A stretch of 64,000 nt of DNA from assembly GCF_003634615.1 (NCBI RefSeq), contig NZ_RBKX01000001.1, forward strand, positions 1,116,001 through 1,180,000. Direction: 5' to 3'. A model generated the notes under the pieces. That model did no database searches and was not told the DNA's origin. It saw only the letters and a program-made list of their open reading frames with translations. This DNA is from Flavobacterium sp. 102 (GTDB lineage: Bacteria; Bacteroidota; Bacteroidia; Flavobacteriales; Flavobacteriaceae). The position numbers and the translations under genes are program-made. The stretch's first letter is position 1. The number at the start of each line of letters is the position of its first letter. This document shows positions 51,575-56,774 of the stretch, one piece after another.

Positions 51575-52711
51575 ATGAAACTAGATAGAAAAGAAATCTT
51601 AGCGGCTTTAGAAACCATTACTATTGCAGGCGAAGGAAAAAATATGGTCGAAAGCGGCGCGGTAAAAAACGTAATCACTTTTGGCAACGAAGTCGTAGTT
51701 GATTTAGTAATCTCAACGCCTGCGATGCACATTAAAAAACGTGCCGAGGACGATATTAAGAAATTAATCCACGAAAAATTCTCTCCGGATGCTGACGTAA
51801 AAGTTAATATCAAAGTGGAAACGCCAACACAAAATCCTAATGAGATCAAAGGCAAAGCCATTCCGGGTATCAGCAATATTATTGCGGTAGCTTCAGGAAA
51901 AGGCGGCGTTGGAAAATCAACCGTTACTGCAAATTTAGCCGTGACTTTAGCCAAAATGGGTTTCAAAGTTGGAATCCTTGACGCCGATATTTACGGACCA
52001 TCAATGCCGATTATGTTCGACGTGGAAAACGAAAAACCAATCTCGATTGAAGTGAACGGGAAATCCAAAATGAAACCAATCGAAAGCTACGAAATCAAAT
52101 TGCTTTCCATCGGATTCTTTACTTCTCCAAGTCAGGCCGTAATTTGGCGTGGACCAATGGCTTCGAAAGCGTTGAACCAAATGATTTTTGATGCTGATTG
52201 GGGTCAATTAGATTTCATGCTAATCGATTTACCTCCGGGAACAGGAGATATTCACTTGTCAATTATGCAATCTTTGCCAATTACCGGCGCTGTTGTCGTT
52301 AGTACACCGCAAGCCGTAGCTTTAGCAGATGCGAAAAAAGGTGTGTCGATGTTTCTATCAGACAGCATCAACGTTCCGGTATTGGGAATTATAGAAAACA
52401 TGGCATACTTCACACCGGAAGAATTGCCAAACAACAAGTATTATATTTTCGGAAAAGAAGGCGCTAAAAACCTGGCGGAAGATTTGCAAGTACCATTTCT
52501 TGGCGAAGTGCCATTGGTACAAAGCATTCGAGAAGCTGGAGATTACGGTCGTCCGGCAGCGTTGCAAACGGCTTCTGTAATTGAAAAAGTTTTTGAAGAA
52601 ATCACCAGAAATGTAGTGCAGGAAACGGTAAACCGAAATAATGATTTACCACCAACCGAAGCAATCAAAATCACAACGATGGCCGGATGTTCGGCAGTAA
52701 ATAAAAAATAG
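51575..52711 (+). CDS. mrp: Mrp/NBP35-type iron-sulfur carrier ATPase
   Basis: A 378-residue protein: an N-terminal MIP18/DUF59 domain (about residues 1-85), then a P-loop ATPase with the deviant Walker A GKGGVGKST (108-116), DADIYGPSMP and LIDLPPGTGD. Mrp proteins carry or insert Fe-S clusters into target proteins. A NifU-like scaffold gene follows, and beyond it a ferredoxin reductase/ferredoxin module that would need such clusters. Confidence 0.94.
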   Translation: MKLDRKEILAALETITIAGEGKNMVESGAVKNVITFGNEVVVDLVISTPAMHIKKRAEDDIKKLIHEKFSPDADVKVNIKVETPTQNPNEIKGKAIPGISNIIAVASGKGGVGKSTVTANLAVTLAKMGFKVGILDADIYGPSMPIMFDVENEKPISIEVNGKSKMKPIESYEIKLLSIGFFTSPSQAVIWRGPMASKALNQMIFDADWGQLDFMLIDLPPGTGDIHLSIMQSLPITGAVVVSTPQAVALADAKKGVSMFLSDSINVPVLGIIENMAYFTPEELPNNKYYIFGKEGAKNLAEDLQVPFLGEVPLVQSIREAGDYGRPAALQTASVIEKVFEEITRNVVQETVNRNNDLPPTEAIKITTMAGCSAVNKK

Positions 52712-52802: not shown

Positions 52803-53042
52803 ATGACAAACGAAGAATTGATTTTAAACATCGAAAAAGCACTCGCCGAAATCAGACCGTTTCTGAATTCCGATGGCGGCGATATTAGTTTGGTTTCCAT
52901 CGAGGATGATAAACATGTGAAAGTGCGTCTTCAGGGCGCTTGTACTTCTTGCAGTTTGAGCATCAGCACGATGAAAGCCGGTGTGGAAACAACGATTAAA
53001 AAATACGCACCACAAATAGAAACAGTGGAGAACGTAGCTTAG
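52803..53042 (+). CDS. NifU C-terminal-domain iron-sulfur scaffold protein
   Basis: A 79-residue protein equal to a single NifU_N-like/Nfu domain, with the cluster-binding pair C47xxC50 in QGACTSCSLS and the ALAEIRPFLNSDGGDI N-terminal helix. Such small Nfu proteins pass Fe-S clusters to apoproteins. It follows mrp with a 91-nt spacer full of octamers. Confidence 0.93.
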   Translation: MTNEELILNIEKALAEIRPFLNSDGGDISLVSIEDDKHVKVRLQGACTSCSLSISTMKAGVETTIKKYAPQIETVENVA

Positions 53043-53285: not shown

Positions 53286-54344
53286 ATGATTGAAACAGAT
53301 ATACTAATAATCGGTGCCGGTCCAACAGGACTTTTTACTGTTTTCGAAGCAGGATTATTAAAATTAAAATGCCACATAATTGACGCTTTGCCACAACCCG
53401 GAGGACAATTAGCAGAATTGTATCCCAAAAAACCCATTTACGATATTCCCGGTTATCCGGAAGTATTGGCGGGTGATTTGGTGACCAATTTAATGGAGCA
53501 AATCAAACAATTCCAACCCGGATTTACCTTAGGACAAACCGCCGAAACCATTGAAAAACTAGAAGACGGAAGTTTTATTGTAACCACTAATGAAGGTACT
53601 AAGCATAAAGCTAAAGCGATTGCGATTGCCGGTGGCTTGGGAACATTTGAACCAAGAAAACCAATTCTGAAAGACATAGAATTTTACGAAAAAGAAGATC
53701 GTGGCGTGGATTACTTCGTCAAAGATCCTGAAAAATACCGAGGAAAAAACATCGTGATTTCCGGTGGTGGCGATTCTGCCTTGGATTGGAGTATTTTCCT
53801 TTCTGATGTAGCGTCTTCAGTGACTTTGGTACACCGAAGAAATGAATTTCGCGGCGCTTTAGACTCTGTTGAAAAAGTGCAAGAATTGAAATCGGCAGGA
53901 AAAATAAAGTTAATTACTCCCGGAGAGGTTGTCGGATTCAAAGGTTCAGAACGAATCGAATCTGTAGATATTGAAGTTAACGGCGCTCGCATGAATGTCG
54001 TGACCGATTATTTTATTCCGCTTTTTGGGTTGACGCCAAAACTAGGGCCTATCGCCAATTGGGGATTAGAAATCGAGAAGAATGCGATTAAAGTGAACAA
54101 CGCTTTAGACTATCAAACCAATATCGAAGGTATTTACGCTATCGGTGATGTCAATATTTATCCGGGCAAATTGAAGTTGATTCTTTGTGGTTTCCACGAA
54201 GCGACTTTGATGTGCCAAAGTGTTTACCAAAGAGTAAATCCGGGCAAAAAATATGTATTGAAATACACCACAGTTTCCGGGATTGATGGTTTTGACGGAA
54301 CACGGAAAGAAGCCGAAAAAGCGGTAGTAAAATCGATAGACTAA
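53286..54344 (+). CDS. Ferredoxin-NADP+ reductase, thioredoxin-reductase-like (FNR2 type)
   Basis: A 352-residue FAD/NAD(P) oxidoreductase. I use the ATG at 53286, right before DILIIGAGPTGLF. Motifs: FAD GAGPTG, PGGQLAELYP, the NADP-site ISGGGDSALDW, and AIGDVNIYPGKLK for FAD. The redox-active CxxC of thioredoxin reductases is missing, as in FNR2/YumC ferredoxin reductases. It would pass electrons from NADPH to the ferredoxin encoded two genes downstream. The diiron protein gene begins at the next base after its stop. Confidence 0.9.
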   Translation: MIETDILIIGAGPTGLFTVFEAGLLKLKCHIIDALPQPGGQLAELYPKKPIYDIPGYPEVLAGDLVTNLMEQIKQFQPGFTLGQTAETIEKLEDGSFIVTTNEGTKHKAKAIAIAGGLGTFEPRKPILKDIEFYEKEDRGVDYFVKDPEKYRGKNIVISGGGDSALDWSIFLSDVASSVTLVHRRNEFRGALDSVEKVQELKSAGKIKLITPGEVVGFKGSERIESVDIEVNGARMNVVTDYFIPLFGLTPKLGPIANWGLEIEKNAIKVNNALDYQTNIEGIYAIGDVNIYPGKLKLILCGFHEATLMCQSVYQRVNPGKKYVLKYTTVSGIDGFDGTRKEAEKAVVKSID

Positions 54345-54905
54345 ATGCTAAACCATCCTGAATTAGTAGACCTGTTAAAAAAAGCTTATTCTGCCGAAAA
54401 AGCAGCTGCTTTCGCCTATCAAGGTCATGCCGGTTCAGTAAAAGATAAAGTGCAAAAAGCCGCCATTCACCAAATTGAAATTGACGAGTGGAATCATAGA
54501 AAAGAAGTGCTGGAAATCATGAACGATTTTGACATTTCCATTTCCAAATGGTATGAATTTAAATTTCATGTGATTGGCAAAGTGATTTCGGGCAGTTGTT
54601 ATGTTATCGGTTGGTTTATGCCATTCTATTTTGCCGGAAGATTGGAAAGCGGTAACGTTTGCGAGTATTTCCGAATGATGCATTTTTTTAATTCGTTAGG
54701 GATTACCAAATACGACCAAGCGTTGTACGAAATGGGCATCAAAGAGAAAGAACACGAAATTTATTTTCTGGACAAAATAAAAGACAGTAAACTGCTTCCT
54801 TTTTTTGAAAAGCTTTTTTCATGGGGAACCGGCAAAGGTTTTAACGATATTGATTTAGACAAAAAATACCCGGTGGAACAATCCAACCAATATTGCAAAA
54901 AATAA
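54345..54905 (+). CDS. COQ7-like / ferritin-like diiron hydroxylase family protein
   Basis: A 186-residue four-helix protein. Candidate diiron ligands are E18, E48xxH51 (DEWNH), E101 or E107, and E134xxH137 (EKEHE), the ferritin-like/COQ7 spacing. Hydrophobic VIGKVISGSCYVIGWFMPFYF (about 76-96) could embed in the membrane, as in demethoxyubiquinone hydroxylases. The gene is directly fused end to end with the reductase and 6 nt before a ferredoxin, so it has its own electron supply. Flavobacteria are expected to make menaquinone rather than ubiquinone, so the substrate must be something else. Confidence 0.8.
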   Translation: MLNHPELVDLLKKAYSAEKAAAFAYQGHAGSVKDKVQKAAIHQIEIDEWNHRKEVLEIMNDFDISISKWYEFKFHVIGKVISGSCYVIGWFMPFYFAGRLESGNVCEYFRMMHFFNSLGITKYDQALYEMGIKEKEHEIYFLDKIKDSKLLPFFEKLFSWGTGKGFNDIDLDKKYPVEQSNQYCKK

Positions 54906-54911
54906 ATTGAC

Positions 54912-55244
54912 ATGGCAAACGACGTTACCATAACCATAACTGATCGCGAAGGCATCAGTCACGAAGTACAAGCACCAACTGATATGAATATGAACATCAT
55001 GGAACTCGTTCGTGCTTACGAATTGGCACCCGAAGGAACCATCGGGATTTGTGGCGGCATGGCGATGTGTGCTTCTTGTCAGTGTTATGTTTTAAATGAT
55101 TTCCCGTTACCGGAGAAAAGTGATGATGAGCAAGCTATGCTTTGGGAAGCCTTTAATGTTAAGGATAACAGCCGCTTGGGTTGCCAAATTCACATCACAG
55201 AAGACCTTAACGGACTCGAAATAGAATTGGCGCCGGAAGCATAA
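54912..55244 (+). CDS. Adrenodoxin-type [2Fe-2S] ferredoxin
   Basis: A 110-residue ferredoxin. Cluster ligands C47, C53, C56 and C91 fit Cx5Cx2Cx34C, close to the adrenodoxin pattern; C58 is an extra cysteine. The acidic surface residues DDEQAMLWEA are typical of partner docking. It is the third gene of the coupled reductase/diiron/ferredoxin set, and its stop directly abuts the convergent SGNH gene. Confidence 0.93.
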   Translation: MANDVTITITDREGISHEVQAPTDMNMNIMELVRAYELAPEGTIGICGGMAMCASCQCYVLNDFPLPEKSDDEQAMLWEAFNVKDNSRLGCQIHITEDLNGLEIELAPEA

Positions 55245-55991: not shown

Positions 55992-56774
55992 TTAAGCCAA
56001 TGCCAAACTGGCTTCTATTTTTTCTTCAATGGCATTCCAAAGCCCAATTCTTTTTTCTAAAGCTAAAATGGAAACTTCTTCGACTTCTTTCCATTTTTGA
56101 GCATCGTCCTGACAAAGTTCGTTAATCATTTGCATCGCCATTGGTCCGTGTTCGTCGGCATCTAATTCGATGTGTCTTTCGAAATAGTAAATCAATTTAG
56201 ACAAATCAACATCAGGGAAATTTTGCTGGAAGTTTTTCAGGATTTCGGTAAACATATTCGGAATCAAATCTTCTCTGCCAAAAGTAAATGCGGCCGCAAT
56301 TTTATGCACTTTACCTTCTTCAATTACGCGGAAAGTAAAGTCTAAAAATGCTTTTACGTCCGTATGTAAATCACTTTGTTTGATGGCGATGAAGACATTT
56401 TTAGTATCGATTACGTTTTGAAGAAAAGCGTCTAATTCTTGGGTACAAGCGCCACAACTTTGCATGGCATCGACATACATTTCGAAATGACTTAAACGTT
56501 TTCCGTCTAAAGTCAAATCGCTTTCTTCGGCCAAAACAATTTCGTTAATCAAATACCTGGTTTCCGGATTTGCTGTAGCAAACCAAGGTGTTGTAGTGCT
56601 GGTCAATTGGCGCTGCAATGCTTTCAACAGCGACATAAAATCCCAAACGGCATACACGTGACTTTCTAAAAATTGATGTAAATCGTCAATAGTTTTTACT
56701 TTTTCGTATAACGGATGTTGGAGTAAAATGTCTTTCTGTGATTGAATTTTCTCGTTGATGATAGATATGGTCAT
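55992..56774 (-). CDS. DUF3050 protein (haem-oxygenase-like fold)
   Basis: A 260-residue soluble protein. VWDFMSLLKALQRQLT, TRYLINEIVLAEESD and YYFERHIELDADEHGPMA are DUF3050 signatures. Helical with many Glu/His residues, placing it in the broad haem-oxygenase/diiron group; no function is established. A minus-strand TACTTTTG (56827-56834) lies 52 nt upstream of the ATG. Confidence 0.85.
   Translation of the reverse strand: MTISIINEKIQSQKDILLQHPLYEKVKTIDDLHQFLESHVYAVWDFMSLLKALQRQLTSTTTPWFATANPETRYLINEIVLAEESDLTLDGKRLSHFEMYVDAMQSCGACTQELDAFLQNVIDTKNVFIAIKQSDLHTDVKAFLDFTFRVIEEGKVHKIAAAFTFGREDLIPNMFTEILKNFQQNFPDVDLSKLIYYFERHIELDADEHGPMAMQMINELCQDDAQKWKEVEEVSILALEKRIGLWNAIEEKIEASLALA

Follow-up and report, generated by a model that had tools for sequence, protein, structure and literature searches.

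What might a small ferritin-like protein do between a ferredoxin reductase and a ferredoxin, in a genus that uses menaquinone-6? The question is raised by a stretch of 64,000 nucleotides from Flavobacterium sp. 102 (contig NZ_RBKX01000001.1, positions 1,116,001 to 1,180,000), referred to here as the window, in which the gene of a putative diiron protein of the COQ7 superfamily (DII) is enclosed by those of a reductase (FNR) and a ferredoxin (FDX) (Table 1). A first-pass annotation had taken the three genes for a self-contained module, in which a COQ7-like monooxygenase with a dedicated electron chain acts on a membrane-soluble substrate outside ubiquinone biosynthesis.

Table 1. Genes of the locus, with positions counted from the first letter of the window.
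Gene product	Position	Strand	Remarks
Mrp/ApbC-type P-loop ATPase (presumed)	51575-52711	+	Upstream of FNR; context only
NifU-like Fe-S protein	52803-53042	+	PF01106, 4.5e-26; upstream of FNR; context only
FNR: FNR2/YumC-type NADPH-ferredoxin reductase	53286-54344	+	352 aa from ATG; belongs to the older FNR-FDX pair
DII: COQ7-superfamily diiron protein (putative)	54345-54905	+	186 aa; conserved motif, predicted model
FDX: adrenodoxin/putidaredoxin-like 2Fe-2S ferredoxin	54912-55244	+	110 aa; neighbours FNR with or without DII

The three genes are as tightly packed as had been described, all on the forward strand, with spacers of 0 nt (FNR to DII) and 6 nt (DII to FDX); an alternative upstream start for FNR is possible at a TTG (53256). 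The names given to the two flanking products were also borne out, the FNR2-type reductase by its PDB matches (5ygq, 3.7e-100; 3lzw, 'Ferredoxin--NADP reductase 2', 3.5e-75) and the adrenodoxin-type ferredoxin by matches to adrenodoxin and putidaredoxin chains. Against Fer2 (Pfam) and fdx_isc (NCBIfam), FDX stays under the cut-off. The two genes further upstream, one NifU-like and the other presumably of the Mrp/ApbC type, had been called immediately upstream, which is true of their order and not of tight coupling, since there are 243 nt between FNR and the NifU-like gene. The DII gene has a GC content (0.364) close to that of the window (0.368) and is under purifying selection (dN 0.027, dS 0.889, window against locus L004). 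Downstream of FDX, on the reverse strand, lies the gene of a DUF3050 protein (55992-56774; PF11251, 5.1e-102). Its score to the Haem_oxygenas_2 model ('iron-containing redox enzyme') is over the cut-off as well (30.2 against 28.9 bits), which makes it another uncharacterised possible metal enzyme close to DII.

Spread and conservation of DII

Genome contigs were scanned with short peptides of the window DII, which gave 109 confirmed relatives, from which 80 loci were kept; with such queries and such a selection, distant kin are under-counted. The kept loci are 66-96% identical to the window protein. Most come from Bacteroidota; the others are records of Verrucomicrobiota, Kapaibacterium and Ignavibacteria, and one is from a metagenome-assembled genome (MAG) of Planctomycetota. 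Two loci with no clean ORF, L023 and L077, were left out of the tree and the counts, although alignment A1 includes L077. The resulting set has 80 rows, namely 78 of the 80 scanned loci together with L002 and the window DII. The residues first named as ligands or possible ligands (E18, E48/H51, E101, E107 and E134/H137) are where they had been placed and are identical in all 80 aligned sequences, as is E136. Poor conservation of the ligands, which would have spoken against a diiron protein, is thus not what was found.

DII was present in two of 150 genomes of relatives (its own and G038), a third hit, L003 (27% over 62 residues), being excluded as non-family, and profile searches recovered it from two of 395 Bacteroidota genomes (its own and G170) and two of 240 Verrucomicrobiota genomes, one of the latter being the genome on which the sample was centred. 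A search of 149 Planctomycetota genomes with the Pfam COQ7 model (PF03232) put seven genomes over the cut-off, with one protein each. L119, L120, L121 and L123 are homologues of DII, though distant (28-31% identity), L117 and L118 are of a different, COQ7-type kind, and L122 is unclassified. When DII is aligned with the four distant homologues (13 rows), the invariant columns include E18, Y25, G27, H28, E48, H51, R52, E71 and C85 in the first half, and G89, P93, E101, N104, E107, Y108, E134, H137 and E138 in the rest. A profile of the wider subfamily, run against 148 Planctomycetota genomes, matched 14, and 12 of these strongly, among them G556, on which the sample was centred. The further members considered below number 12 (11 from Planctomycetota and one from Verrucomicrobiota), with duplicate loci (L119/L126, L120/L128, L121/L125, L123/L129 and L067/L124) counted once; one of them, L116, has 62% identity with the window DII and is hence not distant. 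H28, R52, E107 and E138 make up the signature of the subfamily, with E107 and E138 varying in a few rows once more members are added.

Plasmids gave one match (24.3% identity, E 0.8) and no credible copy of DII, phage collections gave none, and 101 pattern matches in viral contigs included no DII relative; comparison with PHROGs, PADLOC and the phage and viral collections was likewise without a match. No publication on the subfamily was found in the open-licence literature, which does not imply its absence from print. Going by these sequence comparisons, DII is best read as a sparsely spread, distinct subfamily of the COQ7 superfamily, with members in Bacteroidota, Verrucomicrobiota and Planctomycetota.

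Kinship with COQ7

The functional motif of COQ7 is given as E-X6-Y-X22-E-X2-H-X48-E-X6-Y-X28-E-X2-H, and an electron-proton relay is assigned to E60, H148 and Y149 (PMC9774615). All 80 rows of the DII set carry E18-X6-Y25-X22-E48-X2-H51-X49-E101-X6-Y108-X25-E134-X2-H137, which departs from the COQ7 motif only in two spacers (X49 for X48 and X25 for X28), and the DII spacing recurs in 11 of the 12 further members (L133 has X25 for X22). A loosened form of the motif was sought in 2,967 stop-free segments (663,375 residues), a non-random sample as it consists only of DNA fetched in the analysis. It was found in 120 of 121 family segments, a count that includes duplicate loci, and outside the family only in L117 and L118, both of them Pfam COQ7 matches; the bare E..ExxH..E..ExxH skeleton, without the tyrosines, occurs in nine non-family segments.

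Where DII parts from COQ7 is in the relay. At the position of His148 there is a glutamate (E107) in 80 of 80 rows, so that the triad is incomplete with its Glu and Tyr kept; the 12 further members have Glu (10), Asp (1) or Gln (1) there, and L117 and L118 have His. By the motif, the third glutamate ligand would be E101 and not E107, the latter taking the place of His148. A weak hhalign comparison with the single sequence L117 (E-value 0.01, probability 4%) pairs E107, and not E101, with the COQ7-type glutamate; both residues are invariant in the 80-row set, and either may face the metals. The two COQ7-type genes (L117:1360-1923 and L118:1375-1926; 55.1 and 50.3 bits to PF03232) come from two of 149 genomes of Planctomycetota, a phylum that is not known for ubiquinone.

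The window DII passes no Pfam or NCBIfam cut-off. Against PF03232 (cut-off 23.5 bits) it is unlisted at E ≤10, HMMER filters dropping most matches above 0.1, and it has no match to NF033656, the equivalog model of the DMQ monooxygenase (cut-off 180 bits). Among 30 members, 22 match PF03232 at E ≤1 (best 3.7e-4 and 20.6 bits, under the cut-off), and the distant homologues L119, L120, L121 and L123 pass it with 28.3-30.4 bits; one of six family members scanned, L119, matches NF033656 (18.2 bits). The description of DII as COQ7-like thus stands on conserved ligands and a near-exact motif, though the window protein passes no COQ7 profile, and we regard its placement in the COQ7 superfamily as very likely.

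An AlphaFold model of DII, made with 30 sequences (pLDDT 87.8, pTM 0.84), has its main helices at residues 5-31, 35-61, 68-87, 92-117 and 124-145. Foldseek found no match to this model in the PDB at E 0.001 or better; its top matches are YciE (0.0036) and YciF, both above COQ7 (7ssp_E, rank 8, E 0.047, TMq 0.60). When the A2 profile was compared with the PDB (28 matches), the best hits were a bacterioferritin (3.6e-7, best stretch 6-73) and Alr3090, and human COQ7 had the longest aligned stretch of the 28 (profile 7-131, E 0.092).

Linkage to the reductase and ferredoxin genes

FNR was found in 78 of 81 sampled Flavobacterium genomes at E ≤1e-138. The best 30 of these FNR loci were fetched, and 28 are without DII. 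FNR and FDX are separated by ≤10 nt in 17 of the 28 and by 90-685 nt (tblastn) in seven, where the 90 nt of L106 is due at least partly to an alignment ending short; in the remaining four, FDX was not found within the flank, within the limits of tblastn. Other genes occupy the gap in five of the seven wide-gap loci (L090, L093, L097, L105 and L107), and the FNR-FDX junction in Flavobacterium looks like an insertion spot inside the operon for varied small genes. The inserts are of several kinds: three loci hold nucleotidyltransferase-type ORFs with a small partner ORF (one was scanned, with DUF6036 just under the cut-off), one insert is a 23S rRNA IVP protein (PF05635, 5.3e-34), and another is a secreted-looking protein of ~191 aa with no Pfam match, which resembles by eye ORFs beside DII in L006, L008 and L024.

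DII occurs with FNR and/or FDX orthologues in Flavobacterium only, at 11 loci (L004-L009, L011, L013 and L024, in addition to the window and L002). It is downstream of FNR in all 11, with one ORF between the two in L007 and L024, and FDX is downstream of DII in eight, being missing beside it in L002, L011 and L013, whose genomes have it elsewhere. At the other 71 of the 80 loci there is no FNR or FDX orthologue in flanks of up to 6 kb (less where a contig ends); the one match in L060, to the reductase family, is 24% identical and lies on the strand opposite to DII. All three genes are thus together at eight of 11 Flavobacterium loci and at none of the 71 others, so the three-gene set is not conserved and a dedicated FNR-DII-FDX module was rejected as a general property; separation of DII from the reductase and ferredoxin, which would have told against the module, is the rule outside Flavobacterium and not within it.

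Carrier genomes were also searched for unlinked copies. FDX is present in six of six Flavobacterium carriers tested and unlinked to DII in three (G038, G538 and G539). Among 12 carriers outside Flavobacterium, two of them carriers of distant members, five have an FNR orthologue (58-63%) and four have FDX; seven are without an FNR orthologue (best matches ≤32% identity) and eight without FDX, absences that are soft since several of the tested carriers are MAGs. FNR adjoins FDX, with DII elsewhere, in G547 and G551 (Chryseolinea) and G564 (Pedobacter). In the 80-row tree the 11 Flavobacterium DIIs form one clade (support 99/94; bootstrap not settled, correlation 0.964), and hence one acquisition explains the linkage to FNR. 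The FNR-FDX pair is older than the arrival of DII in Flavobacterium, where DII entered one clade. Because DII sits inside this older pair here, and elsewhere is mostly unlinked to it, the three genes do not make up one dedicated machine, and the self-contained module of the first-pass annotation falls.

In a narrower version, FNR and FDX would serve DII, as a monooxygenase, with a dedicated chain within Flavobacterium at least, and the linkage would have been kept because FDX or FNR reduces DII. Ferredoxins commonly reduce diiron enzymes, and the invariable place of DII downstream of FNR, the FDX gene that follows in eight of 11 loci and the short spacers in the window are all in keeping with such a chain. 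We nevertheless hold it to be unlikely, as a single acquisition suffices for the linkage, FDX is elsewhere in half of the Flavobacterium carriers, most of the 12 other carriers are without FNR or FDX orthologues (softly, as said), and unrelated genes also fill the FNR-FDX gap.

Outside Flavobacterium, gene neighbours were tried as a route to function and rejected, as no function could be drawn from them. No gene family is the immediate neighbour of DII in more than seven of the 69 non-Flavobacterium loci with a DII ORF, and at 26 of the 65 with ORFs on both sides there is no same-strand neighbour within 60 nt. The families most often met nearby include a glyoxalase-fold protein, encoded within two genes of DII at nine of the 69 loci, and a GNAT acetyltransferase, at seven, each following one tree clade, and none of ten neighbour families scanned is a quinone-pathway enzyme. 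The homologue gene was recovered in eight of 11 fetched Planctomycetota stretches, with neighbours that are unrelated by eye. DII is, almost certainly, a stand-alone protein. Two further observations concern its surroundings: a B12-binding radical SAM protein (DUF4080) is encoded within two genes of DII at six of the 69 loci (L019, L021, L022, L028, L031 and L032), which are not confined to a single clade of the DII tree, and at L120:169-1787 (-) the homologue adjoins opposite-strand ORFs which, from their look, may encode NuoA and NuoB.

Function of DII and its likeness to known systems

A role in ubiquinone biosynthesis, which had been doubted from the start, is argued against by the genome content, for which COQ7 and UbiA-superfamily genes were looked at. 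There is no COQ7 match in any of 30 DII carrier genomes, that of Flavobacterium sp. 102 included. The latter encodes four UbiA-superfamily proteins (PF01040), namely heme O synthase, MenA, one of the geranylgeranylglycerol-phosphate geranylgeranyltransferase type and a fourth that reaches none of the listed NCBIfam cut-offs, and models of 4-hydroxybenzoate octaprenyltransferase score far under their cut-off in these proteins.

Our best explanation, put forward tentatively and with a little less than even confidence, is that DII is a stand-alone diiron O2 enzyme of the membrane surface, a subfamily of its own within the COQ7 superfamily, which is reduced in the style of COQ7 and oxidises a membrane-soluble ring substrate. 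With O2 and a diiron site bridged by carboxylates (E18, E48/H51, E101 and E134/H137), it would carry out this oxidation at the membrane surface. Reduction of COQ7 is by NADH, with the quinone as a possible conduit (PMC9774615). By analogy, the site of DII would probably be reduced from NAD(P)H through the substrate or quinone, with a relay of E18, E107 and Y108 carrying the reduction and Glu replacing His148; with reduction of this kind, no dedicated reductase would be needed. In one Flavobacterium lineage DII would have landed inside the existing FNR-FDX operon, where cotranscription is probable, DII may borrow electrons from the pair and its neighbours may serve it incidentally. The most hydrophobic stretch of DII (76-94) has a 19-residue Kyte-Doolittle mean of 1.35, modest for a membrane segment, and only seven of 80 members reach 1.6, so that the proposed membrane contact rests on analogy.

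That the substrate is a quinone is a plausible guess on which we would not insist; a menaquinone-type quinone or its precursor would be the most likely candidate. The boldest form of the proposal is in our view rather doubtful. In it, DII would be an O2-dependent enzyme, so far undescribed, of bacteria that use menaquinone: the product of a single, horizontally spread gene that modifies or oxidises menaquinone (or some other quinone of the membrane) and works as a COQ7 with a Glu-Tyr in place of the His-Tyr relay. Such bacteria would thereby gain either a modified quinone or an O2 sink fed by quinol.

The extra invariant glutamate recalls rubrerythrin-type sites, and DII might instead be an oxidase or peroxidase that protects the cell by reducing O2 or peroxide with quinol or NAD(P)H, and not a hydroxylase. 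E107 adds a carboxylate at the His position of COQ7, DII is a solo gene in many genomic settings, and the Rubrerythrin model (PF02915, cut-off 22.8 bits) is matched by the window DII under the cut-off (14.8 bits, E 0.039), by 16 of 30 members (best 0.0029) and by L119 over the cut-off (27.3 bits). However, L119 passes without any single passing stretch, DII keeps the COQ7 motif including both tyrosines, and the glutamate spacing of rubrerythrin is 3, against 6 for E101-E107, all of which makes this reading improbable. A ferritin-like protein that handles iron or has a structural role and catalyses no redox reaction, like YciF/YciE or encapsulin cargo, would suit the best fold matches and the EncB-type profile matches (0.0011 for the window, 2e-5 for L067), but is very improbable, as those profile matches are partial (residues 3-67 and 5-65) at 18.9 and 24.6 bits against a cut-off of 90, and the invariant Tyr/Glu relay positions would have no obvious use in storage.

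The known role of COQ7 is in ubiquinone synthesis, and DII keeps its motif in carriers that gave no COQ7 match; a solo gene shared across phyla at 66-96% identity, it points to an O2-dependent step on a membrane substrate that has gone unrecognised. The change from His to Glu at the relay position bears on how COQ7-type enzymes deliver electrons.

DII shares with the COQ7/CLK-1 demethoxyubiquinone hydroxylase (PF03232, NF033656) the same two Tyr positions and a near-identical motif spacing, and its distant members pass the Pfam COQ7 cut-off; it differs in having E107 at the His148 position, in carrier genomes without a COQ7 match, and in NF033656 scores far short of 180 bits in the six members scanned. 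L117 and L118 have the loosened motif in common with DII, but carry His before the second Tyr (ETKAVHHY and EAKAVDHY) where DII has Glu, Gln at the place of H28, Val or Tyr at that of R52 and Ile at that of E138. Rubrerythrin, bacterioferritin, EncB and YciF have the ferritin-like fold and the E..ExxH skeleton in common with DII, whereas in sequence they match it mainly over the first pair of helices, and no match of the window DII is over a cut-off. FNR and FDX themselves belong to the pairs of FNR2 (YumC-type) reductase and 2Fe-2S ferredoxin, but the pair occurs without DII, and DII without the pair.
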